Shown here: positions 15,686-32,862 of the stretch, in pieces
Layout of the letters: every line of letters begins with the position of its first letter
Numbering within the stretch: position 1 is the first letter of the stretch
Notes under the pieces: generated by a model
What the model was told of the DNA's origin: nothing
The model's database searches: none
What the model saw: the letters and a program-made list of their open reading frames with translations, nothing else
Made by a program: the position numbers and the translations under genes
Origin: Oxalobacter vibrioformis
GTDB taxonomy: Bacteria > Pseudomonadota > Gammaproteobacteria > Burkholderiales > Burkholderiaceae_D
Length of the DNA stretch: 64,000 bases
Assembly: GCF_027118995.1 (NCBI RefSeq)
Contig: NZ_CP098242.1
Coordinates: 1,837,001 to 1,901,000 of the forward strand
Direction of reading: 5' to 3'

Positions 15686-15818
15686 GATATTTCCCTGAAA
15701 TGATGATGTTTCTGTGACAATTTTGAACGATTTTCAGTGAAATTTTCCTCCTTTTTGCGGGTAAAATGCTTGAATATTTCGAATAAAAATTTAAAAAATT
15801 AAAGAAAGTTGATTTTTT

Positions 15819-16283: not shown

Positions 16284-16292
16284 ACGGTCAAC

Positions 16293-16323
16293 AAAAAACC
16301 TGAAGGAAGGCTTCAGGTTTTTT
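16293..16323. terminator. Bidirectional rho-independent terminator
   Basis: Perfect 13-base arms AAAAAACCTGAAG and CTTCAGGTTTTTT around GAAGG. The A run and T run make it work for both the lrp-like gene (+) and the tenA gene (-), which converge here. Confidence 0.9.
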
Positions 16324-16343
16324 GCGGGGATGCTGCAACGCCC

Positions 16344-16979: not shown

Positions 16980-17012
16980 GTTTTCTCCTTTTTTCCGGGG
17001 GTGTGGTTATTG

Positions 17013-17600: not shown

Positions 17601-17682
17601 GAATATCTCCCGGTTAGATGATGGCTCCTGATGCCATAATGATAGTCTCTTTTCATCGGCATAGACGGCCTGTAGATAGTAC

Positions 17683-17949
17683 ATGAAGAAGAAACTCAGA
17701 AAAATAATGATCCGCAACCATCAATTTTTGTGGCGTTATACTCAGGATAATGCCAATTTATCGACGCTGCTGGTTCAGCGGGAAGGAAAACCGGTATGGC
17801 GATGGCGTATCCGTTTCCATACTCAGGATACCTGGACCGGGGGCAACCCATTGAACGAAGGGATAGCTGTGACCAGGGAAGGTGAAGCCATTGAGCTTAA
17901 CCTCAATCGTCCCGGGCATGTCGGTGAGATTATCCAGTATCTGCTTTAG
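17683..17949 (+). CDS. Small protein of unknown function, 88 residues
   Basis: It starts MKKKLRKIMIRNHQFLWRYT and has several Trp residues (WRYT, VWRWRIRF, DTWTGG), which makes it look like a true soluble protein. No family recognised and no strong ribosome site. It lies between two minus-strand genes; its start overlaps no real gene if the flavin reductase begins at 17600. A competing frame on the opposite strand (17758-17961) is less protein-like. Confidence 0.5.
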   Translation: MKKKLRKIMIRNHQFLWRYTQDNANLSTLLVQREGKPVWRWRIRFHTQDTWTGGNPLNEGIAVTREGEAIELNLNRPGHVGEIIQYLL

Positions 17950-17984
17950 CAGGTAATGCATACGGTGCCGGAATCAACAAGCGC

Positions 17985-18902
17985 CTAACCCCGCTCAGAG
18001 CAGACGCGGTTGCGGCCGGAGTTTTTCGCGGCGTAGAGGTATTCATCCGCACGGACAATAAAAGAGGCGAGGCTTTCCTCATTGCCAGGCACAGTAGAAA
18101 TAACGCCGATGCTGATGCTCGTGGATGTTTCAATATCCGCTTCGGGAACGGCGGCAATGATCCGTGCTTTTTCCACGGCAGAACGGATTTTCTCTGCAAC
18201 GGAAAGGGCGGCATCCATCGTGGTGTCCGGCAGAATGATGGCAAATTCCTCGCCACCCAGCCGGGCAGGCATATCACCCGGCCGGTTAAGGGTATCGGTA
18301 AAAACCTGCGTGATTGTCCTGAGGAGCATGTCTCCCTGCGGGTGGCCGTAGGTATCGTTATAAATCTTGAAACGATCCACATCAAGCATCAGAAGGGAGA
18401 TCGGAACCTGCTTGCGGATTGCGCGGCGCCATTCCATTTCGATCCGCTCATTGAAACTCCGGCGGTTTGCGATATTGGTCAGTGTATCGATCATGCCGAG
18501 TTTTTCGATCGTGCGGATGTTCTGTACGGTTTGCAGGTGGGTACGTACCCTTGCCTTGACGATCGTGTTTTTGAAGGGCTTGGTAATGTAATCCACCGCA
18601 CCGAAGAAAAACCCTTTTTCTTCGGCCCCTTCGCTGTTCAGGCCGGAAACAATGATGACAGGGATATTTCTCGTTTCCGACAGTTGCTTCAGTTGCAAAA
18701 GGACATCAAACCCGTTGATGTCAGGCAGGATGATGTCAAGCAGGATCAGGTCGGGAAGGTGTTCAATGGCACGGCTCAAGGCTTCTTCCCCGGATGTGGC
18801 TGTGATGATGTTGTATTCCGGGTAAAGGATTTTATGGAGCACCATCAGGTTCGTCTTTTCATCGTCGACGACCAGTAGGGTGAATTGCTGATGGTTTTCC
18901 AT
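17985..18902 (-). CDS. Response regulator with GGDEF output domain
   Basis: A 305-residue protein: receiver domain (DDE at 13-15, phospho-acceptor Asp56 in LLDIILPDI, then KPF) and a GGDEF domain with intact GGEEF (ARLGGEEFAI) and LDVDRFKIYND. Phosphorylation should stimulate c-di-GMP synthesis. It starts 14 bases after the stop of the hybrid kinase gene, its probable phosphodonor. I chose the ATG at 18902 because the longer frame to 19112 only reads back through the kinase gene. Confidence 0.9.
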   Translation of the reverse strand: MENHQQFTLLVVDDEKTNLMVLHKILYPEYNIITATSGEEALSRAIEHLPDLILLDIILPDINGFDVLLQLKQLSETRNIPVIIVSGLNSEGAEEKGFFFGAVDYITKPFKNTIVKARVRTHLQTVQNIRTIEKLGMIDTLTNIANRRSFNERIEMEWRRAIRKQVPISLLMLDVDRFKIYNDTYGHPQGDMLLRTITQVFTDTLNRPGDMPARLGGEEFAIILPDTTMDAALSVAEKIRSAVEKARIIAAVPEADIETSTSISIGVISTVPGNEESLASFIVRADEYLYAAKNSGRNRVCSERG

Positions 18903-18915
18903 GCTCTTCGCCCTT

Positions 18916-21297
18916 TTATGTCCGGCGGCAAAGCGCTTCCAGGGACAGGAGCGTTTCTCTGGCGAGATTAAAGTTAAAATCGGCAATCTGGCGAACGAGG
19001 AGATCGCCTGCCTCACCAAACGGCGAGAAGGTCTTTTCGATTTCGGGAAGCATGTCAAGGCAGCGGGTATTGCCAGCCGAAAGGAGCGGCATAAGATGCG
19101 TAATGAGTGCACGGGCTTTCACCGGGTCAGAGTGCTCCGGCCGTCGCTGGGCAGGGTGCGGTTTGGCTGCCGCCTGGTCCAGTTGGCTCATGACGGTACG
19201 CAATTCGGTATCAAGCATTTTCATCTGTATCCGGGCATAGGGCAGATTGTCGTCGGCAAGGGCTTTTCCCATGGCGAAAGCGGCCTGTGCCAGACGTGAA
19301 GCGCCGATGAGTGCCGCATTGCTTTTAAGGGTATGCACCAGCCGGTGGGCCAACGGCGTGTCATCGGCATTGATGGCCTCGACAATCTGCTGGAAATCCC
19401 TGCCTTTTTCCGATCCGAAATTGTCCAGTAACTGCTGGTAAAGCACCGGGTCCTCCGCAGCATTTTTCAGGCCCTCATTTCTGTCCAGAATAGCCGCATT
19501 ATAATCCGAGCCTTCATCGTATTCTGCTGCGGTTGACGCATTGCCGTTAGAAAGCCCCTGTTTTTCCGCTGGCAGCCATTTGGACAGGACCTGGTTAAGC
19601 CGTTGTCCTTCTATCGGTTTGGCGAGGAAGTCGCTCATGCCTGCACTCAGGAATTGCTCTTTTGCACCCGGAATGGCATTGGCTGTCAGCGCAATGATAG
19701 GGACATGCCTGCACCAGTCATCATCCAGCGCGTGGATGCGCCGGGTGGTTTCGGTGCCATTCATTTTTGGCATCATGTGGTCCATGAAGACGATGTCGTA
19801 GTGCTTTTCCTGAACCATCCTGATCGCTTCCGGCCCGCTTTCCGCCTTATCTGCCCGGATATCATGGCGTCCCAGGAAACTTTGTGCCACCTTGAGGTTT
19901 ACCGGATTGTCATCAACGAGCAGGACATTGACGCCTGGTTTTGCCACAACGTATGAGGACAGGCTCGCCGTTTCGGTTTTCATGGGGTCACCGGGTACCA
20001 GCGGGACCGTGGCGGTAAAGGTGGAGCCCTTGCCGTAAGTGCTGGTAAAGCGGATATCACCGCCCATCATTTCAAGCAGGCTTTTTGTGATGGAAAGGCC
20101 CAGACCGGTTCCCTCAGGACGCCTGACGGAATCCGGCCCGACCTGCTCAAACATGCCAAAGAGCCGGGGAAAGTCTTCTTCCTGCATGCCTGTGCCGGTA
20201 TCCGTCACGGTAAAGGTGATGCCGGTATTGCCCTCTTTTTCTTCACTCCCCACTTCAAAATGGATGTGGCCGCTTTCCGTGTACTTGACCGCATTGCTGA
20301 GCAGGTTGGTTACGATCTGCTGGATACGCACGTCATCGCCCAAAACCACCTGCGGGAGCGCATCACTGAAATGATGGGAAAAGTGTAGCTGTTTCGATTC
20401 GGCCAGGAAACGGCTCATGGAGGCAATGTTGTTGCACAGCGTTACCAGGTTGAAATGCACCGGGCGTATTTCAAGTTTTCCGGCCTCAATCCGGGAGAAA
20501 TCCAGAATGTCGTTGATGATTTGCAGGAGTACACGCGACATTTTCTGGATGTCGGTAAAAAAGCCGCGTTGCCGGTTGTCCAGGTTATCGGTACGGATCA
20601 GGTCACTCATACCGATGATGGCATTCATCGGGGTGCGGATCTCATGGCTCATGGAAGCCAGAAAGCGGCTTTTCGCTGCGCTGGCTTCTTCAGCGAGTGT
20701 CCTTGCGCGTTGCATTTCCGTCACGTCGTGATACAGCACGATGGCCCCGTCAAATTCGCCGGAGGACAAAAAAACAGGGGTGACATGGACAGTGTAATGA
20801 TGGGGGCGATCAGGATTGCCGGTCTCCAGTGTAATTTCCGCATCAATCGTTGTGCGCTCTGACTTTGCCCTGGAAAAACGCTCAATGGCGCCTTCAACAT
20901 GTTTTTCACTGATGAATGCACGGTAGATTTCTTCAAAATGACGGCCGTTGATGCGGTCGAAATGCGGGATATTGAAGAGCTTCAGGAAAATCTCCGTGCA
21001 GTAGACAAAGCGTCCTTCCTTGTCCAGAAGGACAATAAGATCCGGGCTGTTTTCGAGCAGGCGCTGCATGTGCTGCTCCAGCTTGCGCTGCTCTGCCGCC
21101 CTGAATGCATCGAGATTTCTGGTCGTCAATGCGACTGCCTTATTGCGCTCCAGCGTGCTTTCCAGGCGGCGCAACTGGCGGGTCAGTCGCTGGTTTTCCT
21201 TTTCCAGTTCCTGTATCCGCCTGGCGTACTCTGCCGCCAGTTCTGCTTCAGGCGGGGAGGCGGTATCAGCCTGTTTTTTTGCGCATTTCGGTTCCAT
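18916..21297 (-). CDS. Hybrid sensor histidine kinase (PAS-HisKA-HATPase-REC-Hpt)
   Basis: A 793-residue cytoplasmic protein: N-terminal coiled coil (about 15-65), PAS domain (about 75-200), HisKA with SMSHEIRTPMNAIIGMSD, HATPase (GTGLGLSITKSL), a receiver domain with VFMDHMMPKMNG, and a C-terminal Hpt domain with HRLVHTLKSNAALIGA. This is a full internal phosphorelay. No membrane helix is seen, so its input may come from the FIST protein encoded upstream. The ATG at 21297 (AGGAAAAG upstream) is preferred to a GTG at 21342 that overlaps the FIST gene. Confidence 0.9.
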   Translation of the reverse strand: MEPKCAKKQADTASPPEAELAAEYARRIQELEKENQRLTRQLRRLESTLERNKAVALTTRNLDAFRAAEQRKLEQHMQRLLENSPDLIVLLDKEGRFVYCTEIFLKLFNIPHFDRINGRHFEEIYRAFISEKHVEGAIERFSRAKSERTTIDAEITLETGNPDRPHHYTVHVTPVFLSSGEFDGAIVLYHDVTEMQRARTLAEEASAAKSRFLASMSHEIRTPMNAIIGMSDLIRTDNLDNRQRGFFTDIQKMSRVLLQIINDILDFSRIEAGKLEIRPVHFNLVTLCNNIASMSRFLAESKQLHFSHHFSDALPQVVLGDDVRIQQIVTNLLSNAVKYTESGHIHFEVGSEEKEGNTGITFTVTDTGTGMQEEDFPRLFGMFEQVGPDSVRRPEGTGLGLSITKSLLEMMGGDIRFTSTYGKGSTFTATVPLVPGDPMKTETASLSSYVVAKPGVNVLLVDDNPVNLKVAQSFLGRHDIRADKAESGPEAIRMVQEKHYDIVFMDHMMPKMNGTETTRRIHALDDDWCRHVPIIALTANAIPGAKEQFLSAGMSDFLAKPIEGQRLNQVLSKWLPAEKQGLSNGNASTAAEYDEGSDYNAAILDRNEGLKNAAEDPVLYQQLLDNFGSEKGRDFQQIVEAINADDTPLAHRLVHTLKSNAALIGASRLAQAAFAMGKALADDNLPYARIQMKMLDTELRTVMSQLDQAAAKPHPAQRRPEHSDPVKARALITHLMPLLSAGNTRCLDMLPEIEKTFSPFGEAGDLLVRQIADFNFNLARETLLSLEALCRRT

Positions 21298-21329
21298 GGC
21301 TTTTCCTGTTGTTGCCGTATCGGTTCTCG

Positions 21330-22490
21330 TCAGAAAACACACGCAATAAACGTGAAGTTATGGAAACAGTTGATCAGGCGCTTGTCGCTGCCTTGCATCG
21401 GGCATATCTCACCACCCGCATAGCTCAGGTGGTAAGGCGCCCGATCACCGATCATGTCGACAATTGCCCTGATCTCATCATCCGTATCCGGCCCGAGCAT
21501 GATATTTCTTACCATGCAGGGGTACATGAGGATGGCATTGATATTTTCTTCTGCCAGCAATTCCCGCATGGTTTCTGTTGATTTTTCCAGTACCGCGCTG
21601 TAATCCAGCCTGCCGATGGCCAGCGCGGCATCAACAGGCATCTTGCCGCCACAGATGGCATGCCCTTCCGGTGTGAGGCTGTATATTGCACGTGTCAAGG
21701 GCACCATGGTTTCATCCGTCACAACGAGGGGGAGGGTAATGGCTGTCTTGGCATTCCTGTTGTCAGGCTTGAGCCCGAGCGTATCCAGATAGTCTGACAG
21801 CAGCATGTCGTTGACCTCCTGAAGGAGGTAGCCATCGGATTTCGTGATGATTGCCGGTTGTTTCTGGATGTTGCCGTCGGCGCTGCCGGATACGAAAAAA
21901 CGCGGATTGACATCGCCGTGCATCAGGATAAAGGCAACCGTATTTTCGGAGGCTTCGCCATTCAGTATCGTCATGCTTTCCTCGAAAGCCAGCGTATAGT
22001 CTGTCGAGAAGGGACCAAAGATGGGTGTGCCGTTGCAGACCGTGTCGAGGTGTTCCAGGATCACGGCGCCGCTGATCGTCGGCATGACAGGGGTGAAAGC
22101 CAGGATAAGCGAGGGAAGGCCGGGAAGTTTTGAAAGCGCGGCTTCGTAGGCGTTTTCAACTTCCCGTCCTATCCCTTCGGCAGGAAGCGGGGCAGATATC
22201 GCCGTGGAAAAACTGACGTCCTCGCTGGTCAGGACAGACAGGGAAAGTATCCGCTGCCCGTGTGCGCCGGGCACGGCACTGGTCAATGTGGTGCAGCCGG
22301 CAACCTCAAAAGGCAACTGCTCGCAAAGTGCCCTGACCACGCCGGTTTCGATAAATTCCACATCACATGCAATAAGACCGACGGCATTGGCAAGCAGCCG
22401 GGATTGACGTTCAAGTTGCCCGAGAATGTCCGATACCGCAACATCGGCCTCATCCGTTTCCAGCGTATAGGCGGTCAGCATTTTCAGCAT
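21330..22490 (-). CDS. FIST N/C domain sensory protein
   Basis: A 386-residue protein with the FIST N-terminal and C-terminal domains (CDVEFIETGVVRALCEQLPF, then a GCTTLTSAVPG loop, a GGKMPVDAAL motif, and AGGEICP near the end). FIST domains are thought to bind small ligands such as amino acids and to feed signal transduction. It is first in an operon with a soluble hybrid kinase and a GGDEF response regulator, so it probably provides their input. The ATG at 22490 is preferred to an upstream start at 22535. Confidence 0.88.
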   Translation of the reverse strand: MLKMLTAYTLETDEADVAVSDILGQLERQSRLLANAVGLIACDVEFIETGVVRALCEQLPFEVAGCTTLTSAVPGAHGQRILSLSVLTSEDVSFSTAISAPLPAEGIGREVENAYEAALSKLPGLPSLILAFTPVMPTISGAVILEHLDTVCNGTPIFGPFSTDYTLAFEESMTILNGEASENTVAFILMHGDVNPRFFVSGSADGNIQKQPAIITKSDGYLLQEVNDMLLSDYLDTLGLKPDNRNAKTAITLPLVVTDETMVPLTRAIYSLTPEGHAICGGKMPVDAALAIGRLDYSAVLEKSTETMRELLAEENINAILMYPCMVRNIMLGPDTDDEIRAIVDMIGDRAPYHLSYAGGEICPMQGSDKRLINCFHNFTFIACVF

Positions 22491-22793
22491 GATTATTCCA
22501 TCAGAAGTACCCCGCTGTCTGCCATATGCAGACATCAGAGTATGGGCAGGGACATTCAGGGGGAGGCGCGCTGCGGATTATTACATACCTGTTGTACACC
22601 CATTATGATCGGAGAAAAACAGTTGCGTCAAGACAATTAGTTGTGTAGCGGCAATTTTTTTGTATCGGTTGTTGAATGGGGGTTGAGGGAGGATGGAGAA
22701 TAACCGTGCGCATCCTCCTGGTACTGGCAGGGCTTGGCATTGATCGGTGCGGTATACAGTATGTGACATACCGGTATACAGGAAAGGATGATC

Positions 22794-23452
22794 ATGGCAT
22801 TCACGAAAAAAAGCCTCGGTTTTCTGGAAGAAAATCACCAGCGAAATGACAGGGCATGGTTTAAGGCACACAAAAGCGATTATATCGACTATGTTCAACC
22901 CCCCATGCGGGAGCTGGCTGAAGACCTCCTGCCGGTGGTCGTGCAGATTGATCCGAGACTGGAAAGGGACCTCAAACGTACCCTTTCAAGAATTTATCGG
23001 GATACCCGCTTTTCGCGTGACAAATCCCTGTTCAAACGGGGTAGCTGGCTGGTATTCCAGCTTGGCAAGGGAATGGCCGGGCCGATATGATTTTTTGAGT
23101 TTGCGCCGGACTTTTACTGGTACGGTTGTGGATATTACTCAGCGCCCCCCAAAGTCATGGCCAGGGTACGGCAGCTTGTCCTTGAAGGCGATGAGCGCTA
23201 TCTCAGGACGCAGCAGGCGCTGGATGGCCATCCGCTCATTACCCTCACAGGCGATTTTTACAAACGGTCACGTTATCCTGATGCACCGCCTGCACAGCGC
23301 GAGTGGCTTGAACGAAGAAATATGGTTGCCATGCACAAAAGCCATATTCTGGAAGAGATATTTTCAAAAAACTGGCAGAAACCATCGGAGAGGTTTTCCT
23401 GAGTATTGCCCCTGTGTATGACTTCATGGTTTATGCCGATGAAACGGCATGA
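22794..23452 (+). pseudogene. DUF2461 (TIGR02453) protein, broken by a stop codon and a frameshift
   Basis: The frame from ATG 22794 (AGGAAAGG upstream) encodes the conserved DUF2461 start (FLEENHQRNDRAWFKAHKSDY, then LSRIYRDTRFSRDKSLFKRG). A TGA at 23088-23090 stops it. The same frame continues with FFEFAPDFYWYGCGYYSAP and on to 23402. Near the end, adding one A to the A6 run at 23366-23371 changes the C-terminus to ETIGEVFLSIAPVYDF and moves the stop to 23450-23452, a better match to the family. So the gene carries at least two lesions. Function of the family is unknown. Confidence 0.8.
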
Positions 23453-23623
23453 ACGGTTTTCGTACCTGCTGTGACAGAGGACGTATTGCGCGGAGCAAAT
23501 GATCCTTTCATGAACTAAATCATGGGACGGTTTTTTCATAGCCCCGATAATACGTTCCATGAGTTATGCCGATCATCCTTTTTGCCTGATACCGGGCACG
23601 TAAAAACTTTGGGGATTGCCACG

Positions 23624-24679
23624 ATGAATAAATTTACACTTTCTCTGGGCTCGCTGGTGATGAGCCTTGGCATGTTGTTTTCGACTCATCCTGCTTATGC
23701 CTGTACCCGCCTAGTTTACCTTGGGCCGGAAAATACGATCCTGACCGCGCGTTCCATGGACTGGAAAGAAGACCCGAAAAGTGATATCTGGATTTTCCCG
23801 CGAGGCATGCAGCGAAACGGTGAAATCGGGACACAATCCGTTCACTGGCGCTCGAAATACGGCAGCGTGATTACATCAGCCTACAATCTTTCGAGTACGG
23901 ACGGCATGAATGAAAAAGGACTGGTTGCCAATCTGCTGTGGCTGGCAGAAACGGTATATCCCGCGTGGGATGGCAAGAAACCGGCGCTTTCCATTGCCGC
24001 CTGGGTACAGTATGTCCTCGATAATTTTTCCACGGTAAAAGAAACGGTGCAGTACATGCGTGAAGGGCATTTTGAAGTCGTGAGTGACAATCTGCCTGAC
24101 GGATCACGCTTTGCCACCCTGCATTTGTCGATATCCGATGCGACCGGGGACAGTGCCATTTTTGAATACATCAACGGCAAGCTGGTGATTCATCATGGCC
24201 GTCAATACCAGGTCATGACCAATTCTCCCACCTTCGATCAACAGCTGGCCTTGAATGAGTACTGGAAAAGCATCGGTGGCCTGGTTTTCCTGCCTGGAAC
24301 CAATCGGGCGGCGGATCGCTTTGCGCGGGCCTCGTATTACGTTAACGTCATCCCGAAAACCACTGATATGCGCACTGCCGTTGCAAGTGTATTCAGCGTG
24401 ATAAGAAACACCTCTGTGCCTTACGGGATAACCACAGAAAACGAGCCGAATATCTCTTCTACTCGCTGGCGGGTTGTGGCTGACCAGAAAAACCTGTTTT
24501 ATTTTTACGAATCGACACTGTTACCCAATGTCTTTTGGGTCGATTTCAGCAAGGTCGATTTTCGCGAAGGCTCGCCGGTCAAAAAACTGGAACTCACCGG
24601 CGGCCAGACCTATGCAGGTGAAACCAGCGAAAAATTCAGGAAAACCGCGCCCTTTCGCTTTCTTGGAATAGGCCAGTGA
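23624..24679 (+). CDS. Secreted choloylglycine hydrolase family (bile salt hydrolase / penicillin V acylase-like)
   Basis: A 351-residue Ntn-hydrolase. A signal peptide ends AYA, and cleavage would expose Cys27 (CTRLVYLG) as the N-terminal nucleophile, as the family needs. Arg and Asp follow in ILTARSMDWKED. Other conserved parts are EKGLVANLLWLAE and ATGDSAIFEYINGKLVIHHG, then the PTFDQQL stretch. It should act in the periplasm on amide bonds: conjugated bile salts, penicillin V or acyl-homoserine lactones. The start at 23624 is set by the signal peptide. Bile-salt activity would fit a gut bacterium but is not proved. Confidence 0.88.
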   Translation: MNKFTLSLGSLVMSLGMLFSTHPAYACTRLVYLGPENTILTARSMDWKEDPKSDIWIFPRGMQRNGEIGTQSVHWRSKYGSVITSAYNLSSTDGMNEKGLVANLLWLAETVYPAWDGKKPALSIAAWVQYVLDNFSTVKETVQYMREGHFEVVSDNLPDGSRFATLHLSISDATGDSAIFEYINGKLVIHHGRQYQVMTNSPTFDQQLALNEYWKSIGGLVFLPGTNRAADRFARASYYVNVIPKTTDMRTAVASVFSVIRNTSVPYGITTENEPNISSTRWRVVADQKNLFYFYESTLLPNVFWVDFSKVDFREGSPVKKLELTGGQTYAGETSEKFRKTAPFRFLGIGQ

Positions 24680-24696
24680 CCGGCAATCTGCATATC

Positions 24697-24748
24697 AAGG
24701 CGCAACAGGCTGGGGCCTTAAAAATGCCGCCGGCTCCTGGTGCGCCTT
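24697..24748. repeat. Imperfect inverted repeat after the choloylglycine hydrolase gene
   Basis: Thirteen-base arms AAGGCGCAACAGG (24697-24709) and CCTGGTGCGCCTT (24736-24748) with one mismatch and a 26-base G/C-rich loop. It begins 17 bases after the stop at 24679 and ends 25 bases before the IS481 copy. It may be a terminator or a dispersed repeat. Confidence 0.55.
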
Positions 24749-24768
24749 TCGATTACAGCCTTATCTTC

Positions 24769-25719
24769 TTAGTTGTTTAGTCCCGGCCTTTGATGGATAG
24801 GGTTTAGAGTAAAACGATGTGGCTGAGTTGTCCAGATTTTGCAAATAAATTCATAAGGCGTAAGCCCTTTTAAAGACTTCAATCGGCGGGCGAAATTATA
24901 GGCATTCATGAAATTCTGGAGATAGTTTTCAAACTGCTTGTGATCGTCATAATGATATCGATTGACAGTCGCTTCCTTGATCGTGCGGTTCATTCGTTCA
25001 ACCTGGCCGTTGGTCCATGGATGCTTTACCTTGGTCAGTCGGTGCTCAATGCCGTTTTCCCTGCAAACACGATCAAAAATATGCTCAAAGGCAAACCGAT
25101 CCTTTTCTCTGTTGGTGAATTGAATCCCGTTATCCGTCAGGACAGTATGAATGGCATAAGGCAAAGCCTCCTGCAGGTTGCGTAAAAACTGTGCCGCCTG
25201 CATTTTTCCTGCTCGCTGGTGCAATTCCACATAGGCAAACTTGCTGGTTCGGTCTATGGCTACAAACAGATAAAGCCGACCTTCAGCGGTTCGTACTTCG
25301 GCTATGTCGATAGGGAAGCAGCCAATAGGATAAGTCTTGAATTTCTTTGGCACTGGTTTGTCGCCCTGAACTTCTGGCAAGCGGGATATGCCATGACGCT
25401 GTAAACAGCGATGTAATGAAGATCGGCTCAGGTGAGCGATAGTGGGTTGCAGGGCATAAAGGCAATCATCAAGGGGAAACAGGGTATGCCGCCGGAAAGC
25501 CACAATAATGGCTTCCTCTTCTACGGACAATACAGTTGAAGAAGGATTTTTCGGGCCAGTGGGCAAATCCTTGACGGTTTCCCGCCTGCGCCATTTCGCC
25601 ACTGTCTTGGGGTTGATGCCATAGCGCTTTGCTAACGCCCTCACGCTCTCTTGACTATTTTGTATTGCTCGACGCACTGCCTCTGTTGTTGTGGCGCTGC
25701 TGTGTAAAATCTGTCCCAT
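24769..25719 (-). CDS. IS481-family transposase (copy 1)
   Basis: A DDE transposase of 316 residues: N-terminal helix-turn-helix (ESVRALAKRYGINPKTVAKW) and an rve integrase core with catalytic Asp (FPIDIAEVRT or FVAIDRTSKF), Asp in VLTDNGIQFTN, and Glu in GQVERMNRTIKEA. AAGGAAATATT precedes the ATG at 25719. The element has no stop codon of its own: the frame runs through the terminal repeat and stops five bases outside. The encoded protein is identical to copy 2 from the shared TTTEAV onward. Confidence 0.92.
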   Translation of the reverse strand: MGQILHSSATTTEAVRRAIQNSQESVRALAKRYGINPKTVAKWRRRETVKDLPTGPKNPSSTVLSVEEEAIIVAFRRHTLFPLDDCLYALQPTIAHLSRSSLHRCLQRHGISRLPEVQGDKPVPKKFKTYPIGCFPIDIAEVRTAEGRLYLFVAIDRTSKFAYVELHQRAGKMQAAQFLRNLQEALPYAIHTVLTDNGIQFTNREKDRFAFEHIFDRVCRENGIEHRLTKVKHPWTNGQVERMNRTIKEATVNRYHYDDHKQFENYLQNFMNAYNFARRLKSLKGLTPYEFICKIWTTQPHRFTLNPIHQRPGLNN

Positions 25720-25775
25720 AATATTTCCTTCCATTCAGATGACATGATTGTGCCATCAAAGGCCGGGACTAAACA
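24774..25775 (-). mobile_element. IS481-family insertion sequence, complete copy
   Basis: 1002 bp with perfect 23-base terminal inverted repeats (24774-24796 and 25753-25775; outer bases TGTTTAGTCCCGGCC). It carries one transposase gene. No clear target-site duplication is seen: flanks are TCTTAGT on the left and TCTAAGG on the right. It lies within the first codons of a disrupted IS256-like element and forms an inverted pair with the copy at 29.9-30.8 kb. Confidence 0.9.
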
Positions 25776-25860
25776 TCTAAGGCTTCGAGTTCTTCTCTTT
25801 TCATGCTTATCTCCTATCTGACTATATGATAAGCACTTACACAAAATTTAGAACAGGCTC
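25776..25860 (-). mobile_element. Remnant of an IS256-type element (terminal repeat and first transposase codons)
   Basis: Read on the minus strand, it begins GAGCCTGTTCTAAATTTTGT, which resembles IS256-family terminal repeats. Then comes TAGGAGAT and an ATG at 25804 encoding MKREELEAL, after which the IS481 copy 1 interrupts. No other part of such an element is visible on the far side of the IS481 copy, so the rest was deleted. Confidence 0.5.
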
Positions 25861-26004
25861 ATCAAATATTGAGCATGCATTTTCTCAGCATGAGGCAGAC
25901 ACCTTATAAAATCACCAACCCACGTGCACACTGAAAAGCCAGCCCAAAGATAATCAGACAGATATCCCAAAAACCGGTGCCTGCCTTGAAAAGGTAATGC
26001 GCCC

Positions 26005-26865
26005 CTATTTCAATCTTGCCAAAGCTTCTCTTGCTTTGGTGTTCCCCTGGGCCGCTGCTTTTTCGTACCAGCTACGGGCTTTGGACATATCTTTTTTGAG
26101 ATGTTCCCCTCTCTCATACTGAGTCCCAATAAAATATTGTGAACCGGCAAGGCCGCGTTCTGCGGCAACCTCAATCATGGCTAGGCCATCCTCAATATTC
26201 TTTAGCGTGCCATTTCCCGCCATATACATCAGGCCAAGATTATGCAATGCCGGCAAATAAACCTGCTCTGCTGACTTCGTATACCACTCAACCGCTTTCC
26301 TGCTGTCCTGTTTTACGCCTTTTCCTTCTTCATACGCCAGGCCTAAATTAAATTCTGCAGCCGGCTCTCCCTGCTCTGCTGCTTTCTGGAACCATTTAAG
26401 GGCTTCAGCATCATTTTTCCTCAAGCCACCAAGCCCGTGGGAATAGTATTCACCCATACGGCTTTGAGCGTCTCTGTCGCCTTTATCAGCCGCCATTCTG
26501 AACCAACGAGCAGCTTCACGAGTATTTTTTGTAACGCCCTGACCTTTTTCATAAAAAACACCCATATCGTGCATGGACATGACATTACCATTGTCAGCGG
26601 CTTTTTTTGCCCATTGGGCGGCGCTTTTCTCATCTTTCGCTGTACCCGTACCTGTCAGATATAACCCGCTTAAAAGCCCCTGTGCCTCCACATCCCCTTT
26701 TTCAGCGGCTCTTTTCATGAGAGTAAAAGCTTTGTCCAACTGCTTCTGCTTCAAAAGAGCAACGGCATCCTCCTTATCCCCGGCACTCGCCAAAAAAGCG
26801 AAACCTGCAAGAAACAGGAATGCGAACACAAAACGAAGGGAAGTGCTGGAAGAAATGATATTCAC
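26005..26865 (-). CDS. Secreted Sel1-like repeat protein
   Basis: A 286-residue protein with a signal peptide (cleavage near ASAG, residue 28) and about six Sel1-like repeats, each with the AxxWxxKAAxxG pattern (for example AAQWAKKAADNGNVMSM and ALKWFQKAAEQGEPAAEF). Such solenoids bind other proteins; secreted ones act in the periplasm as adaptors or immunity proteins. GTG start at 26865 with GAGGATTCG upstream. It lies between two insertion sequences in the island, on the same strand as the unknown 477-residue protein, from which the second IS481 element separates it. Confidence 0.88.
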   Translation of the reverse strand: MNIISSSTSLRFVFAFLFLAGFAFLASAGDKEDAVALLKQKQLDKAFTLMKRAAEKGDVEAQGLLSGLYLTGTGTAKDEKSAAQWAKKAADNGNVMSMHDMGVFYEKGQGVTKNTREAARWFRMAADKGDRDAQSRMGEYYSHGLGGLRKNDAEALKWFQKAAEQGEPAAEFNLGLAYEEGKGVKQDSRKAVEWYTKSAEQVYLPALHNLGLMYMAGNGTLKNIEDGLAMIEVAAERGLAGSQYFIGTQYERGEHLKKDMSKARSWYEKAAAQGNTKAREALARLK

Positions 26866-26957
26866 GGCGAATCCTCAATATGGATTATGGGAAGTGAGCA
26901 TAATAGCGGACACAGCCTGTATTTCTCAAGCCATGCGTCATTTGTAGTAGTTTAGAC

Positions 26958-28132
26958 CTGATCTGACAGAAGCCGGTTTTGTTTGGGTATCTGTCAGATT
27001 ACATCTGGATCAGATTTTTCTCCTTCCAGACATTCAATCCATCAAGAAAGGTCTGCATGGGCGTTCTGCCACAGCACATTTTTTCCCTGATGGGTTCGTT
27101 CATTATTGTAATAATGAAGCCAGTTGTCCAGATCGGATTGCAGTGAATCCAGATCGTAGTACAGTTTTTTCCGGAATGCCACCTGGTAAAACTCCTGTAA
27201 AACAGTCTTGTGAAAGCGCTCACAGATACCGTTTGTCTGGGGTGACCTGACTTTCGTTTTCGTGTGATCGATGTCATTGATTGCCAGATAAAGCTGATAA
27301 TCATGGTTCTCAACGCGGCCACAGAACTCTGTTCCCCTATCCGTAAGGATGCGTAATACCGGTACATCCTGGGATGCGTGAAACGGCAGCACCCTGTCGT
27401 TGAGCAAATCTGCTGCGGTAATGGGTGTCTTGCTGGTATACAACTTACAGTGAGCAACACGGCTATAGGTATCAACATACGTTTGTTGATATATCCGGCC
27501 TACTCCTTTCAGGGTACCGACATAGAAGGTGTCCTGAGAACCCAGATAACCCGGATGGGCGGTTTCTATCTCGCCATGAACGATGTCATCCTGCTTTTTC
27601 TTCTCAAGAGCGGCAACCTGTTCTTCCGTGAGAATAATACCTTCGCTGGCTACCTTGGCTTCCAGTGCTTTCAGGCGTTTTTTGAAGTTCTCCAGGTCAT
27701 GGCGCAGCCAGACAGATCGAACACCGCTGCCAGATATAAAAATGCCGAGCTTTCTCAGCTCATTACTGGTGCGGACCTGACCGTGGGCCGGGTAGTCGAT
27801 GGCATATTGAACAACAGCTTTTTCTGTGGCTTCTTCTGTCCGGTTCTTGAGATTGGGAACACGTCTGCTCTGGTTTATCAGGGCATCAATACCCCCTTGT
27901 CCTACTTGCTCGTGATAGCGATAAAAGGTATCACGTGATACGCCCATGACTTTGCAGGCTTTCGATACGTTATTGAGCTCGGATGCCAGATTAAGCAGCC
28001 CGACTTTGTGTTTGATGATCGGATTGGTAGTATGTAACATGAGAGTTACCTCCTTAAGGTTTTGTTTACGGATTCGACACCCATATCAAAACCGGTAACT
28101 CTCTCCTTTGCAAGAGATAACTGTCAGATTAG
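26958..28132 (-). mobile_element. Second IS481-family insertion sequence
   Basis: Bounded by CTGATCTGACAG (26958-26969) and CTGTCAGATTAG (28121-28132), inverted repeats matching at 11 of 12 bases. Near the left end a further CTGTCAGAT (26991-26999) can pair with the terminal ATCTGACAG. It holds the frameshifted transposase at 26999-28040 and is unrelated in sequence to the other two IS481 copies. Boundaries are approximate. Confidence 0.75.
26999..28040 (-). pseudogene. IS481-family transposase, frameshifted near the C-terminus
   Basis: From the ATG at 28040 (perfect AAGGAGG upstream) the frame encodes a helix-turn-helix (VSKACKVMGVSRDTFYRY) and an rve core with the acidic triad: Asp in QTYVDTYSR, Asp in LTDRGTEF, Glu in QTNGICERFH. 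It stops at 27042 after HQGKNVLWQ. Dropping one A from the A6 run near 27086 gives HQGKMCCGRTPMQTF and a stop at 26999, the ending usual for this subgroup. The lesion affects only the last 20 or so residues, so activity may be reduced rather than lost. Confidence 0.8.
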
Positions 28133-28162
28133 ATTCAAACTACTTCACGTCATTAGTGCAGG

Positions 28163-28183
28163 AAATCCGCCATTGGCGGATTT
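28163..28183 (-). terminator. Possible terminator hairpin after the 477-residue gene
   Basis: AAATCCGCC (28163-28171) and GGCGGATTT (28175-28183) with a 3-base loop, 33 bases past the stop at 28216. The T run is short (TTT), so termination may be weak. Confidence 0.45.
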
Positions 28184-28215
28184 TCCCGAAATACCGACCT
28201 CTCCTGCAAAAAATA

Positions 28216-29649
28216 TTACTGGTTTTTCCCGGCCTGTTTTTCCCTGACCTGATTCATCAGAAGACCTCTTTCCTTATCCGTGAGAAGTCTCCAGAGAGTC
28301 TTTACAGCCGTACCGCTTTTCTTTCCCAAAGAAGTGGATATCACATCCACAACCACCTGGTCGCCATCAGGTTTCCCTTTCTTCAGCTCCTCTCCAAGAG
28401 AATAAAGCAGATCATAGTCACCTGTTTCGGCAATGCTGTCCGCAATCTCATCAATCGTCGCATCAAAGACATTGACCGCATACCCAACAGCTGGAGAGAA
28501 GCCTCGCGTGGCATAAACAAGCATGATATCGGCAACATGCTGGCTTAAAGCCTCCTGACCCCAGTAATCATATGCATTTTGTGCCATTTTTTCCGGGTCT
28601 TCATCGTAGATGCCTCTGGATTGAATCATTTCGTCTCTCCCCCTTTGCTGCTCTTGACGGGTATGACGAACGAGGTCTGCAACAATAGGGCGGTTTCCTT
28701 TTTTATCATGTGCATCGGAAAGTATTTCATTGATAACAAGAGCAGCCTTGGCTGTCATATTTTTTATGCCTCTTTCCCGATTTTCAATTCCTTTCAAGGC
28801 ATTCTCCCGATCACGAACGAAGTTCTGTACACCTATTGCCCTGCTGTCATGCAACGCCTGACCTGTACTTTTCAGCCCTTCAGGAAGATAGTCCTGATAC
28901 CACTGCATCTCTTCAGCAAACAGCTTCTGAGGCGATGTATCTGCCCCATGAGCTGAAACAGTTGCCTCAGGTCCATATTTCCCAATCATGGAACCGGTAT
29001 TAGCCAGCACATCATACGTTGCCCTTGACTCTCCTTCCAGATTGCTCGGGATCAGATCTCCCCTGCTCGCCTGCACAACGGATCCCATGGGATGTTCATA
29101 CTCGAATCCCCGTCTCATATTGCTCGTTGCAATCGCTCTTCCTGCCTGTTCTGATGCCTTTTGTCCAGTTCCCGGCCAGGTCTCGGCCTCTGCCTGCTGA
29201 CGGGCAGCGCTGATCGTCTCGTTATTCCCGGGAGTGGATTTAAAGAGATTTTTTGCCCATCCGTAGGAAGGAATACCTGCCCCGTGTGAAGCTGCGCCTG
29301 CTGAATCCAGCGCATCCACCGTAGTTTGCGCCATTGAAGGCGTACTCAGATTCGAGAGCATGCCTTGCTGGTTCACTTTTTCAGACGGTGATGTATTGGA
29401 TGAAAAACCGGTCGATGGATTTAGCGTATCGGTGGCTGTAAATCCAAAATCCAGACTTTTGTCTGATTTGTAGGATGGCCCCAACTGGAAAACATCCGGA
29501 ACCAGCTTGGCAGTCGTTTGTGTCAGTGTGTCCAGGGGGTGCGGGTCATGGCTATCCCAATGGTTGCGCATGTCAAACATTGCCCGTTTTGCCGGGTTGC
29601 CCAGATAATCGGTATCATCCTGCGGCCCCCACATCGTTTGATTTGTCAT
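28216..29649 (-). CDS. Unknown protein of the genomic island, 477 residues
   Basis: No family recognised. No signal peptide or clear membrane helix. The first 150 residues are rich in Ser, Thr, Asn and Gly and look disordered (TLNPSTGFSSNTSPSEKVNQ). The middle is charged and helical. A C-terminal helical part (about 370-470) contains QHVADIMLVYATRGFSPAVG. The long disordered start and helical end resemble secreted effectors or phage-injected proteins, but this is only a likeness. AAAGGAAAGAG precedes the ATG. It sits between insertion sequences; a Sel1-repeat gene lies beyond the next one on the same strand. Confidence 0.8.
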   Translation of the reverse strand: MTNQTMWGPQDDTDYLGNPAKRAMFDMRNHWDSHDPHPLDTLTQTTAKLVPDVFQLGPSYKSDKSLDFGFTATDTLNPSTGFSSNTSPSEKVNQQGMLSNLSTPSMAQTTVDALDSAGAASHGAGIPSYGWAKNLFKSTPGNNETISAARQQAEAETWPGTGQKASEQAGRAIATSNMRRGFEYEHPMGSVVQASRGDLIPSNLEGESRATYDVLANTGSMIGKYGPEATVSAHGADTSPQKLFAEEMQWYQDYLPEGLKSTGQALHDSRAIGVQNFVRDRENALKGIENRERGIKNMTAKAALVINEILSDAHDKKGNRPIVADLVRHTRQEQQRGRDEMIQSRGIYDEDPEKMAQNAYDYWGQEALSQHVADIMLVYATRGFSPAVGYAVNVFDATIDEIADSIAETGDYDLLYSLGEELKKGKPDGDQVVVDVISTSLGKKSGTAVKTLWRLLTDKERGLLMNQVREKQAGKNQ

Positions 29650-29747
29650 TCTCTTTCCTTTAGCTAAAGTGTTTATTACTACGGGACTGCAGCTCCCGTT
29701 CTAAAGTGCTTCCTGATTTGCTCTCTTTCATTCATCAGCTACTCCAT

Positions 29748-29778
29748 AAAAAAAATGCGCGGTTCATCCCGCGCATTT
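29748..29778 (-). terminator. Rho-independent terminator for a gene no longer present
   Basis: AAATGCGCGG (29753-29762) and CCGCGCATTT (29769-29778). On the minus strand the stem is followed by eight T. No minus-strand gene lies immediately upstream of it; the truncated IS481 copy is there instead, so a former gene was probably lost. Confidence 0.75.
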
Positions 29779-29794
29779 ACTGTATATTATAACA

Positions 29795-29820
29795 TATTTT
29801 AGCCATATATGGCTAAAATA
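29795..29820. promoter_or_regulatory. Perfect 26-bp A/T-rich palindrome, likely operator
   Basis: The half-site TATTTTAGCCATA meets its exact complement. The core AGCCATATATGGCT looks like the operators of XRE/HigA-type antitoxin repressors. It lies 57 bases before the ATG that now starts the truncated IS481 copy 2 gene, so the element may be read from a promoter controlled by this site. The regulator is not encoded nearby. Confidence 0.65.
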
Positions 29821-29876
29821 TAGGGGATAAAAATAAGTTTGAAAATACGTTGCCAACTGTTCGTTACGGGGGAGAG

Positions 29877-30827
29877 ATGCCCACAACAACAGAGGCAGTG
29901 CGTCGAGCAATACAAAATAGTCAAGAGAGCGTGAGGGCGTTAGCAAAGCGCTATGGCATCAACCCCAAGACAGTGGCGAAATGGCGCAGGCGGGAAACCG
30001 TCAAGGATTTGCCCACTGGCCCGAAAAATCCTTCTTCAACTGTATTGTCCGTAGAAGAGGAAGCCATTATTGTGGCTTTCCGGCGGCATACCCTGTTTCC
30101 CCTTGATGATTGCCTTTATGCCCTGCAACCCACTATCGCTCACCTGAGCCGATCTTCATTACATCGCTGTTTACAGCGTCATGGCATATCCCGCTTGCCA
30201 GAAGTTCAGGGCGACAAACCAGTGCCAAAGAAATTCAAGACTTATCCTATTGGCTGCTTCCCTATCGACATAGCCGAAGTACGAACCGCTGAAGGTCGGC
30301 TTTATCTGTTTGTAGCCATAGACCGAACCAGCAAGTTTGCCTATGTGGAATTGCACCAGCGAGCAGGAAAAATGCAGGCGGCACAGTTTTTACGCAACCT
30401 GCAGGAGGCTTTGCCTTATGCCATTCATACTGTCCTGACGGATAACGGGATTCAATTCACCAACAGAGAAAAGGATCGGTTTGCCTTTGAGCATATTTTT
30501 GATCGTGTTTGCAGGGAAAACGGCATTGAGCACCGACTGACCAAGGTAAAGCATCCATGGACCAACGGCCAGGTTGAACGAATGAACCGCACGATCAAGG
30601 AAGCGACTGTCAATCGATATCATTATGACGATCACAAGCAGTTTGAAAACTATCTCCAGAATTTCATGAATGCCTATAATTTCGCCCGCCGATTGAAGTC
30701 TTTAAAAGGGCTTACGCCTTATGAATTTATTTGCAAAATCTGGACAACTCAGCCACATCGTTTTACTCTAAACCCTATCCATCAAAGGCCGGGACTAAAC
30801 ATCTCTAGTCAATTTCAAAATTTTTAA
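29877..30827 (+). CDS. IS481-family transposase (copy 2), new N-terminus
   Basis: Identical in protein sequence to copy 1 from TTTEAVRRAIQN to the end of the element, with the same helix-turn-helix and DDE residues. The native start was removed with the left end of the IS. An ATG at 29877 supplied by the flanking DNA, two bases after GGGGGAG, is in frame and gives MPTTTEAV. The stop is also outside the element (30825-30827), adding ISSQFQNF at the end. A functional enzyme could still be made. Confidence 0.85.
   Translation: MPTTTEAVRRAIQNSQESVRALAKRYGINPKTVAKWRRRETVKDLPTGPKNPSSTVLSVEEEAIIVAFRRHTLFPLDDCLYALQPTIAHLSRSSLHRCLQRHGISRLPEVQGDKPVPKKFKTYPIGCFPIDIAEVRTAEGRLYLFVAIDRTSKFAYVELHQRAGKMQAAQFLRNLQEALPYAIHTVLTDNGIQFTNREKDRFAFEHIFDRVCRENGIEHRLTKVKHPWTNGQVERMNRTIKEATVNRYHYDDHKQFENYLQNFMNAYNFARRLKSLKGLTPYEFICKIWTTQPHRFTLNPIHQRPGLNISSQFQNF
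29881..30801 (+). mobile_element. IS481-family insertion sequence, left end deleted
   Basis: 921 bases matching bases 82-1002 of the complete copy, in the opposite orientation. The right terminal repeat (30779-30801) is intact. The left 81 bases, including the left repeat and native start codon, are missing, so this copy should not move by itself. The right end lies three bases from the stop codon of the cyclase-like gene. Confidence 0.9.
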
Positions 30828-31476
30828 TATATTTTTTTTGGTGATTTGCGAAAGGAGAAGAAAAAAGGTAATTTTCAAACCAGAGGTGTTTCATGAAGGC
30901 CGATTCATTAAACGTGATTTTCTCTTTACTGCTGATGTATATTTTTCGGGCAAGATCATGTACCTGATCCCAGTTTTCGTTATCGAGTATGTTTAGAAAA
31001 TAAACACCGTTTTGATAAACAAGGAGCTTTTTCCCGAAAATTTCCTGAAGCTCTGACCCGGAGCGATACATTTCTATCAGGTTGGGGGAAATAAGAATGC
31101 GTGGGTACGTAGCATGTTTGTTTTCCAGTTCGTGCGCCAGGGTAACCGCGTGACTGTAAGTGAGATTGCCATTCTGAAAATGCCTCGCATAAGCCAGCCC
31201 GCCCCTGATGTATAAATCCCTTTCCAAAAATGCAATAAACGTATCCTTTAAAATTTCCAGAAATTTAAGGAAATTGTTATGCGTGTTACATGTCAGGATT
31301 ATCGTATCGGATATCGCCTGGTAATTGAATACAGCGGTGTTGACTGAAGACAGAAAAGACAAGGCCTTCTGCAGGTCTTCCTTGAAGGAGAAATCAGCGT
31401 TCTGGATGTCTTCTTCCAGCCGTGCCCGGTAGCCGATTACATCAAGAAGGGCAAGATAGATATATGACGTATTCAT
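30805..31476 (-). CDS. Nucleotidyl-cyclase-like protein
   Basis: A 223-residue soluble protein that resembles the class III nucleotidyl cyclase fold. The first metal-binding Asp lies in LALLDVIGYR, the second in QAISDTIILT. These are followed by IRGGLAYAR, the shared RGG turn, and LAHELENKHATYPRILIS, the usual dimer-helix and strand. The pattern is like that of PycC-type pyrimidine cyclases and related orphan cyclase-like proteins, but I cannot assign nucleotide specificity. Its ATG overlaps the stop of the ParA-like gene by one base (TGATG), so the two are translationally coupled. Its stop codon lies three bases from an IS end, so its C-terminus may be shortened. Confidence 0.75.
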   Translation of the reverse strand: MNTSYIYLALLDVIGYRARLEEDIQNADFSFKEDLQKALSFLSSVNTAVFNYQAISDTIILTCNTHNNFLKFLEILKDTFIAFLERDLYIRGGLAYARHFQNGNLTYSHAVTLAHELENKHATYPRILISPNLIEMYRSGSELQEIFGKKLLVYQNGVYFLNILDNENWDQVHDLARKIYISSKEKITFNESAFMKHLWFENYLFSSPFANHQKKYIKNFEID

Positions 31477-32504
31477 CACGAAATTGCCTTTGCCAGCTTG
31501 TTGATTTCATTGCGATAGTCTTCCATTCGATCTACCCAGGGTTCCCAGACCGAACCGTAGTACATTCGCCCGTCACTGGACGCATCCTTGGTGTGTTCCT
31601 GCTCGATATCGAAAATGGCCCGGCCGAATAATTGCGCCGTCGGAGCAAGAGCCTCTACATCCTTGATGGAGGCGGTAAAGGGTTTTTTCGCGGAGAAGTT
31701 TGACTTGACTCTCAACCCCTTTTGCCCCACCAGGGAGGTCTTGATTTCCTCCAGGATTTTATCCTGCCATTTTGTGTAGGATTCTTTGACTTTTGATCCG
31801 CCATGCACTTTAAAATTTTGCAGAACGGTTCCAGCAAGTCTCGGTTTACCCCTGAAGGGTTCAATGCCAAAAGGAGATAAAGTGCTGGCTATGACCTGGT
31901 GTCTTTCAATCCATTCATGAATGACCTGGCCCAAAAGCTGAACCGCCTGATAACAAAAGCGATCAGGGACAAGGGGGACAATCAGTTCGTCACAGCTTAA
32001 TATGACGGTACGGGTGATGGCGCCAGAGCTTGGCCCCACATCGCAGATGGTGAAAGCAAAATCATGTATACGCCCTAACGCACGCAGTAACCTGCTAAAG
32101 GCGACATAGGTGTTTTTTTCATGAATATTGTCTGTGACAGCCTGATTCCATGCGGTACCGAAATACGTTTCTGCCCGTGAAAATTTCAGATCACCACGGA
32201 GCAAAAATAAGCCCTTATATTTTTGATGTTCAGACAATGTGACGTTATTGGCATCTATTTCCGCCTGTTTCCCTTGAAATCTTGGGAGCATGGCGTCGTA
32301 AATGGATGTCCCGGGCAATGCCTGATCAGGGTCACTCAACTCTTCGTTGATAGCAAAAAACATTTCGGTCATATTGCATTGGGGATCGCAATCAACTAGC
32401 AGAACCTTCTTGTTTTGCTGTGATAAAAGCACCGCAAGATTAAAGGTCGTTGTTGTTTTGGAAACCCCGCCCTTGTTATTGTATAGAGACACTATTTTGC
32501 ACAT
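31476..32504 (-). CDS. ParA/MinD-family ATPase
   Basis: A 342-residue P-loop ATPase with a deviant Walker A (NNKGGVSKTTTT), switch I/Walker A' region LLVDCDPQCNMT and Walker B-like FTICDVGPSSG. A long insertion and a C-terminal extension distinguish it from plasmid ParA proteins of 210-260 residues. No ParB gene or plasmid replication gene is nearby, so a role in chromosome or plasmid partition is unlikely. It is the first gene of a coupled pair with the cyclase-like gene. AAAGGAAAC precedes the ATG. Confidence 0.88.
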   Translation of the reverse strand: MCKIVSLYNNKGGVSKTTTTFNLAVLLSQQNKKVLLVDCDPQCNMTEMFFAINEELSDPDQALPGTSIYDAMLPRFQGKQAEIDANNVTLSEHQKYKGLFLLRGDLKFSRAETYFGTAWNQAVTDNIHEKNTYVAFSRLLRALGRIHDFAFTICDVGPSSGAITRTVILSCDELIVPLVPDRFCYQAVQLLGQVIHEWIERHQVIASTLSPFGIEPFRGKPRLAGTVLQNFKVHGGSKVKESYTKWQDKILEEIKTSLVGQKGLRVKSNFSAKKPFTASIKDVEALAPTAQLFGRAIFDIEQEHTKDASSDGRMYYGSVWEPWVDRMEDYRNEINKLAKAIS

Positions 32505-32640
32505 TATTGTTTCCTTTAATGAATGAATAGGCTTATCTTTAAAAGTAAAAACAAGGCGTCTTTTACAGCGAGCAAAGAGAGATTTATCTGCTCAGAAATT
32601 CTTGAGAACAGGGTAAACGTGTTCCCTAAAAAGAAAATGC

Positions 32641-32668
32641 AAAAATCCCGTTTTTCAACGGGATTTTT
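32641..32668 (-). terminator. Rho-independent terminator of tRNA-Leu
   Basis: Perfect 12-base arms AAAAATCCCGTT and AACGGGATTTTT with loop TTTC, 36 bases past the tRNA 3' end on the minus strand, ending in a T run. Confidence 0.9.
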
Positions 32669-32704
32669 GTTGCGTAATCGATTGATTTGATTGTTACTTT
32701 GGCT

Positions 32705-32789
32705 TGGTGCCCACGGAGGGATTTGAACCCCCACGTCTCTCAACACACGGACCTGAACCGTGCGCGTCTACCAATTCCGCCACGTGGGC
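32705..32789 (-). tRNA. tRNA-Leu (anticodon CAG)
   Basis: 85 bases including an encoded CCA. The acceptor arm GCCCACG pairs with CGTGGGC, discriminator A. The anticodon loop is TTCAGGT in a G/C-rich stem, anticodon CAG, reading CUG. The long variable arm (GTTGAGAGAC region) is that of class II tRNAs, and the T loop is GGTTCAAATCC. It marks the right edge of the accessory island; such genes are frequent integration sites. Confidence 0.95.
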
Positions 32790-32862
32790 AATATCTCATA
32801 AAGAGAGTGGTTGTCGGACACGAGTACGATTTTGTGTCATACTGATCCGACAGAAGCCAATC

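Follow-up and report, generated by a model that had tools for sequence, protein, structure and literature searches.

We studied two adjoining genes in a 64,000-nucleotide stretch of the Oxalobacter vibrioformis genome (NZ_CP098242.1, positions 1,837,001 to 1,901,000, forward strand), in the following called the window. The upstream gene encodes a ParA-like ATPase, the downstream gene a protein with a predicted class III cyclase fold. We are highly confident that the two form a real two-gene module, and the pair is a mobile unit in scattered distant microbes. Our comparisons suggest an undescribed self-defence or toxin switch, because related ATPases carry toxin-type enzymes instead of the cyclase-fold protein. 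That is, the module would be a mobile two-gene toxin-antitoxin-like system, probably anti-phage. Its parts are (aa: amino acids; ORF: open reading frame):

31476..32504, minus strand: ParA-like ATPase gene, upstream member of the pair (342 aa; ORF list, Pfam AAA_31, phrog_164)
30805..31479 (GTG start, 224 aa) or 30805..31476 (ATG start, 223 aa), minus strand: class III cyclase-fold protein gene, downstream member
31476..31479, minus strand: overlap of the two reading frames, suggesting translational coupling

The extent of the overlap depends on the start codon of the cyclase-fold gene. It is 1 base (TGATG), as described in an earlier note on this DNA, if the ATG is used, while the GTG start gives 4 bases instead. 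An overlap of 4 bases is the commonest gene spacing among relatives (21 of 40 pairs; for 6 of those 21 we chose the start among several possible ones). The stop codon of the cyclase-fold gene occupies positions 30805-30807.

The pair in other genomes

We scanned species genomes with the ATPase; 364 stretches matched, 247 of them encode relatives and the best 80 were kept. A cyclase-fold gene lies directly downstream of the ATPase gene in at least 41 of these 80 loci. Since the scan is pattern-based and considers the best 80 of 247 relatives, the 41 pairs are a lower bound. For 40 of the 41, the intergenic distance ranges from -50 to +36 bases; L036 is also paired, with its ATPase frame lying inside the match. 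The proposal of a two-gene system is thus borne out, i.e., the same pair recurs, with the two genes adjacent, in other genomes. Chance pairing is rejected on these loci together with the correlated divergence of ATPase and cyclase-fold protein (r=0.93 across 41 pairs, namely 40 loci plus the window, whereas the highest r among 2000 permutations was 0.20).

The 41 paired loci belong to Pseudomonadota (32), Bacillota (3), Thermodesulfobacteriota (2) and a Methanosarcinales metagenome-assembled genome (MAG; 1), with no phylum given for 3. That is, four named phyla are represented, including one archaeal MAG. The replicons determined comprise one named plasmid as well as, for at least L058 and L061, records of chromosome size, such that the pair is not found only in plasmid or phage partition loci, an outcome the earlier note had regarded as fatal to its idea. 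The paired locus L032 is the plasmid found earlier as L002.

Searching 398 genomes drawn evenly from the phylum, we obtained matches to the second protein in 8 genomes with a two-row profile and in 15 with a wider one. The ATPase lies beside the cyclase-fold match in 2 of those 8, namely the window genome and G212. The first search, which included 59 further genomes, gave no match of the second gene in any of these.

Exchange of partners between ATPase clades

More distant ATPases, which align over the same length, are joined by different partners at this position. Among the best 80 loci, we find 16 HEPN-type partners (including L091, which is cut by a contig end, and L100, a short ORF of 84 aa), 8 RelA/SpoT-type partners and 15 loci with none nameable, several of which are contig ends. 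Beyond the Pfam-scanned loci, the HEPN and RelA/SpoT labels come from our own profiles, built partly on the same rows; L076 and L091 were recognised by frame search only and are labelled 'other' and 'cut' in the tree. Pfam RelA_SpoT was confirmed in 3/3 tested loci (L067, L071, L079; E-values 6.6e-17 to 8.3e-16). HEPN_RiboL-PSP scores above the Pfam cut-off in L087 and L096 and below it in L072; it is also above the cut-off in L008 (Pf-type phage WX-TY), L010 (phage Pf1) and L013 (a Burkholderia glumae plasmid).

We placed 82 ATPases in a maximum-likelihood tree, in which those with cyclase, RelA/SpoT and HEPN partners occupy separate supported parts; the order of the main groups is uncertain given the long branches that meet between them. 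The partner labels require 7 changes on this 82-row tree, compared to a mean of 37.2 when shuffled.

Uncontrolled HEPN RNases and RelA/SpoT-fold synthetases are known or predicted to stop growth. We propose the cyclase-fold protein as the effector because it takes the position of the HEPN and RelA/SpoT partners and is co-inherited with its ATPase. Enzymes of HEPN type are predicted growth-stopping partners (PMC3710099; this paper as well as PMC11224242, PMC4886424, PMC7159879 and PMC2701414 are cited from excerpts). Anantharaman 2013 proposed a ParA/Soj ATPase as the antitoxin of a HEPN toxin, acting via conformational change or phosphorylation (PMC3710099).

Some loci show further arrangements. 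In all 8 loci of the RelA/SpoT version (L067, L069, L071, L075, L076, L079, L080, L083), an ORF of 183-197 aa lies directly upstream. No Pfam family scored above cut-off in the two tested, and the version is possibly a three-gene system. The ATPase partners L085:5050-5985 and L101:5048-6010 (311-320 aa) have no Pfam match and share an RN-x-AIH motif, perhaps representing a further HEPN-like type. Within L089, a cyclase-fold relative (5738-6631, minus strand; 4.9e-29) adjoins an ATPase-HEPN pair.

The ATPase itself matches Pfam AAA_31 (6.8e-27) and, over residues 1-311, the ParA-like phrog_164 (6.4e-39). Its residues K11, G12, G13, K16, D38 and D155 are invariant in 82/82 aligned ATPases. PADLOC gave weak local PDC-M28B matches only, the best of which (1.4e-5) covers residues 5-40, i.e., the nucleotide-binding motif. 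The earlier description as a ParA-like ATPase that has no ParB partner is supported: the deviant Walker A motif is present, and no ParB gene is in view.

Such ParA homology, along with the location of some ATPase relatives on plasmids and in the phages Pf1, WX-TY and ST160, would fit a cassette that serves mobile elements in partition or maintenance and has no antiviral role, be it a classical addiction module or ParA-based positioning. We regard this as very improbable, since none of the neighbour Pfam families listed (25 of 121) is ParB (parS sites were not searched for) and the enzyme-fold partners vary by clade. L009 (Salmonella phage ST160) and L011 (a Helicobacter prophage) also have long ParA-like ATPases close to phage regulatory genes; these are annotated as partition proteins, and no partner was recognised.

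Predicted fold and conserved residues of the second protein

A structure model combined with fold comparison predicts a class III cyclase fold for the second protein, an assignment that leaves us with hardly any doubt. The structure prediction suggested by the earlier note thus found a cyclase fold rather than the refuting absence of one. The assignment rests on model and profile comparison because a sequence search of the PDB, even with a 42-row profile, gave no class III match. Likewise, no Pfam, PADLOC or NCBIfam model matched at E up to 1. The protein matches phrog_23933 (function not known) at 5.9e-17, besides two insignificant PHROGs; as a PHROG family is matched, distant relatives exist in viruses. 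In IMG/VR, no close viral relative was confirmed for either the ATPase or the cyclase-fold protein, and no phage record was found for the latter.

Eleven residues (D12, S56, D57, R91, G92, H99, S108, P125, R126, K196, W199) are identical in 42/42 aligned paired proteins and in 41/41 of a second alignment. Judged from these alignments, the cyclase-like pattern noticed earlier is more than chance, because so many positions are identical in all paired proteins, the two metal-binding Asp residues among them. Both are kept in 41/41: D12 belongs to the first strand, and D57 to the turn that follows strand 50-55 (equivalence by profile alignment).

For a profile-profile comparison based on 13 relatives, class III cyclases reach P=4.1e-5 (16 of 30 class III rows passed the motif filter), while P is 0.078 for GGDEF, 0.29 for RelA/SpoT and 0.24-0.3 for HEPN. 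A GGDEF identity was rejected on this difference. The P value varies with the row set, i.e., it is 0.0057 for the paired proteins alone and 0.0015 for a set holding one wrong-strand ORF (L225). A separate comparison gave class III P values of 0.0087 and 1.8e-4, with at least 1 of its 30 class III rows being wrong-strand.

Neighbourhoods of the related pairs

We grouped the neighbours of the 41 pairs by BLAST (ORFs of at least 100 aa picked by length, E 1e-8; some are wrong-strand in GC-rich genomes). The groups cover 7 and 4 loci (ribonucleotide reductase), 3 loci (one upstream family) and otherwise at most 2. The earlier suggestion that an insertion sequence (IS) may have removed an effector gene is not supported: the most that any neighbour family recurs is at 8 of the 41 pairs, and those 8 have ribonucleotide reductase genes upstream. 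A lost third gene is thus not indicated, as no neighbour family is widely recurrent. A family of about 256-302 aa lies upstream of the ATPase in L034, L055 and L061.

The 8 pairs lie after ribonucleotide reductase genes. Six follow nrdB by ~10-370 bases (L037 and L045 from Pseudomonas; L038, L039, L040 and L066 from alphaproteobacterial records), and the Dyella pairs L026 and L043 are found ~1.75 kb after a large-subunit ribonucleotide reductase gene of another type. We compared the sequence following nrdB in 31 Pseudomonas loci (L037 and L045 included, the others from L182-L212; 1.5 kb per locus, in one only 0.3 kb), which forms 28 groups by DNA similarity, i.e., is hypervariable. Given this hypervariability, a functional link to ribonucleotide reductase was set aside, and an insertion hotspot is the more likely explanation of the placement. 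Ten ORFs picked after nrdB, a choice biased by length and partly by look, have PADLOC matches in 8/10 cases at 1e-5 and in 6/10 at 1e-10, where methyltransferases among the matches are not always defence genes and the control threshold was 1e-10. The matches include SspB, restriction-type enzymes and AbiC (1.7e-9).

Proposed mechanism

We propose the following working model. The ATPase would act as sensor or switch that, in one nucleotide state, binds and restrains its cyclase-fold partner. A cue from infection would release or activate this partner. The released class III cyclase-fold effector, which keeps both metal Asp residues, might then act on nucleoside triphosphates (NTPs) such that growth stops, either via a drain of the NTPs, via a harmful nucleotide product or via a product read by a receptor encoded elsewhere. 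By analogy with the related ATPase systems, a conflict or defence role of the pair is reasonably likely, and the full ATPase-gated effector mechanism we favour by a narrow measure.

Several observations weigh against this interpretation. First, the protein does not keep the Asn and Arg by which class III cyclases stabilise the transition state; the aligned positions T112 and E116 vary. Catalysis of the cyclase-fold protein may thus be altered or absent, and any product may or may not be a classical cyclic nucleotide. Second, the association of both genes is not strict. In 6/8 matching genomes of the even draw, no ATPase is found within ~1.5 kb of the cyclase-fold relative, and by annotation the plasmid loci L003-L005 and L007 hold such relatives without ATPase. 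Third, the ATPase of L056 is placed inside the cyclase clade without a recognised partner, besides the 15/80 loci without a nameable one. Finally, a PADLOC scan of neighbours does not prove enrichment of defence genes. It covered 123 of 148 ORFs of at least 180 aa plus the DRT8 protein of a congener (see below), i.e., 124 proteins, and among the families listed (25 of 154) none exceeds 2/124 proteins. Counts are by family, not by distinct protein, and for 43 families the DRT8 protein is the sole match. The mad3 family is equally frequent in the control (2/90), for which 90 ORFs were taken from 20 arbitrary regions and 7 families were hit. Some neighbours are of defence type, but the comparison of scan and control does not prove the enrichment near defence genes that the earlier note proposed to look for.

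Among the cyclase-fold relatives that lack the ATPase, L004:5974-6825 lies beside dsr1 and L007:5953-6723 is ~2 kb from an AbiEii family gene.

The lack of Asn and Arg would fit a catalytically dead, nucleotide-binding adaptor. Here, the ATPase would be the active part, e.g., a switch of ParA type, binding to a surface or to DNA, by which phage DNA is blocked or a complex positioned, which agrees with its K11, K16, D38 and D155 being invariant in 82/82. The set of residues identical in 41/41 cyclase-fold proteins (the metal Asp, S56, R91, H99, S108, R126, K196) resembles an active site, though, and the partners in other clades are enzyme families, which makes a mere adaptor rather improbable. 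The Asn is also lacking in some established class III cyclases (PMC4886424). The cyclase-fold protein is on balance probably catalytically active.

If active, it might also serve signalling. That is, the ATPase would sense infection and activate the cyclase-fold enzyme, whose cyclic nucleotide addresses a receptor or effector encoded elsewhere, as in a split Pycsar-like system. The predicted class III fold and the two invariant metal Asp residues agree with this, whereas the absent transition-state Asn and Arg do not. No receptor gene recurs beside the 41 pairs (single receptor genes were not searched one by one), the module's occurrence in several phyla would need a receptor in each host, and the window genome has no match of its own to PF00211, the canonical class III cyclase family. 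We thus consider signalling unlikely.

Extending the ATPase-gated effector model, the ParA-like ATPase family could be a general gate for exchangeable growth-arrest enzymes, with the cyclase-fold enzyme acting here as a direct toxin by NTP consumption or by an unusual nucleotide product whose formation does not involve the classical Asn and Arg. This generalisation from related systems is tentative and, in our view, somewhat doubtful. A direct-toxin use of the class III cyclase fold was not found in the open-licence literature, a scope that leaves most subscription papers outside. If true, a single ATPase platform would control enzymes of three or more unrelated folds (HEPN, RelA/SpoT, class III cyclase), and a cyclase-fold effector would be added to the bacterial conflict systems. 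It would also account for a set of 'ParA family' genes that sit in prophages, plasmids and genomic islands and are at present classed as partition proteins. The partner swap makes the mechanism testable: the feature common to the three partners would be what the ATPase recognises.

Genomic setting in Oxalobacter

The window sits in a 2.6-Mb single-contig genome. The following features surround the pair:

32705..32789, minus strand: tRNA-Leu (cag), border of the variable region, 3' end toward the pair
29850..30827, plus strand: transposase ORF, its element reaching up to the stop codon of the cyclase-fold gene
24769..25734, minus strand: second transposase copy ORF, near-identical to the 29850-30827 copy
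14536..32704, strand not given: variable region of ~18 kb at tRNA-Leu with conserved sequence on either side, from comparison with congeners

The two transposase copies have opposite orientation and are identical at 923/924 bases. The repeat ends at ~30804 and abuts the 3' side of the cyclase-fold gene, which is not visibly shortened by the insertion, i.e., in the alignment it ends close to its relatives' ends. The right copy (29850-30827) seems to be without the left end present in other copies. The earlier placement of the pair between insertion sequences and a tRNA gene is correct for the tRNA-Leu border and for one IS on the left, but not for several insertion sequences.

A genome of the same species (G463) matches window positions 32100-34305 at 99% up to its contig end, and a 100% identical ATPase fragment is located at the contig end of a MAG labelled Oxalobacter sp. 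For the stretches fetched from seven other congeners, tRNA-Leu (cag) and the sequence after it are recognisable, while the other side is different. In G011 (same genus), the homologue of window 13194-14535 lies ~0.3 kb from the tRNA-Leu gene; since the conserved flanks are this close, ~18 kb of the window are absent there. Other content occupies the site in G002 (3.6 kb) and G009 (5.8 kb). The G002 insert (L146:2272-3888, minus strand) encodes a reverse transcriptase (PADLOC Drt8, 5.5e-164), followed by a 239-aa gene. The accessory character ascribed to the surroundings is thus supported insofar as some defence-type genes occur at the tRNA-Leu site and beside relatives. A search within the window for an att-type repeat of the tRNA end gave nothing convincing.

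Comparison with known systems

ParABS partition systems have a ParA-type ATPase with a deviant Walker A motif. The window ATPase differs in being longer (342 aa), in having no ParB seen and in its enzyme-fold partner. The toxins toxSAS and CapRel are RelA/SpoT-fold enzymes, i.e., cases of a nucleotide-handling enzyme as toxin. They resemble the RelA/SpoT partners found in another clade of the window-type ATPase, while in the window pair a ParA-like ATPase is presumed to be the antitoxin and the effector has a cyclase fold.

Pycsar systems, which combine the pyrimidine cyclase PycC with a receptor effector (PMC11224242), are likewise small accessory operons that encode a protein of class III cyclase fold. 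The window pair has an ATPase gene instead. An adjacent receptor (PycTM/PycTIR) is lacking: the neighbours in the window are a transposase and a tRNA gene, and no receptor-type gene is recurrent in the 41 loci. By adjacency, the pair is not Pycsar, and the close analogy drawn before is not supported, for want of a recurrent receptor gene. Of the proposed structural check against PycC, the class III fold was recovered, but the PycC entries named in the excerpts of PMC11224242 are not among the fold matches listed (best 50). PADLOC gave no match at E up to 1, where the presence of PycC models in its library was not checked.

The class III-like, uncharacterised cyclases of DUF2652 are likewise divergent, keep the metal Asp and lack the usual Asn (PMC4886424). 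In contrast to the window protein, which matches no Pfam family, these mycobacterial proteins keep the Arg (PMC4886424).

cNMP cyclase and MinD/ParA-like domains are described as effector domains of larger conflict systems (PMC7159879), the excerpts of which do not show an ATPase-cyclase dyad. ParA is listed in the excerpts of PMC2701414 only as an associate of RHH genes, and ParA, searched as a whole word, was found in neither PMC13092281 nor PMC9519451. Within the open-licence literature defined above, the cyclase dyad was not found.

Closest is the ParA/Soj-HEPN (MAE_18760) dyad, a predicted toxin-antitoxin system (PMC3710099). It likewise couples a ParA/Soj-type ATPase with a small enzyme gene, and among relatives of the window ATPase, HEPN enzymes take the partner's place. 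Pairs of such ATPases with cyclase or RelA/SpoT enzymes were not found in the excerpts of PMC3710099. The window ATPase belongs to a separate clade, and its partner is a class III cyclase-fold protein. The pair is not a member of the ParA/Soj-HEPN dyad because this partner is not HEPN; by analogy, it appears to work like a toxin-antitoxin or abortive-infection dyad.

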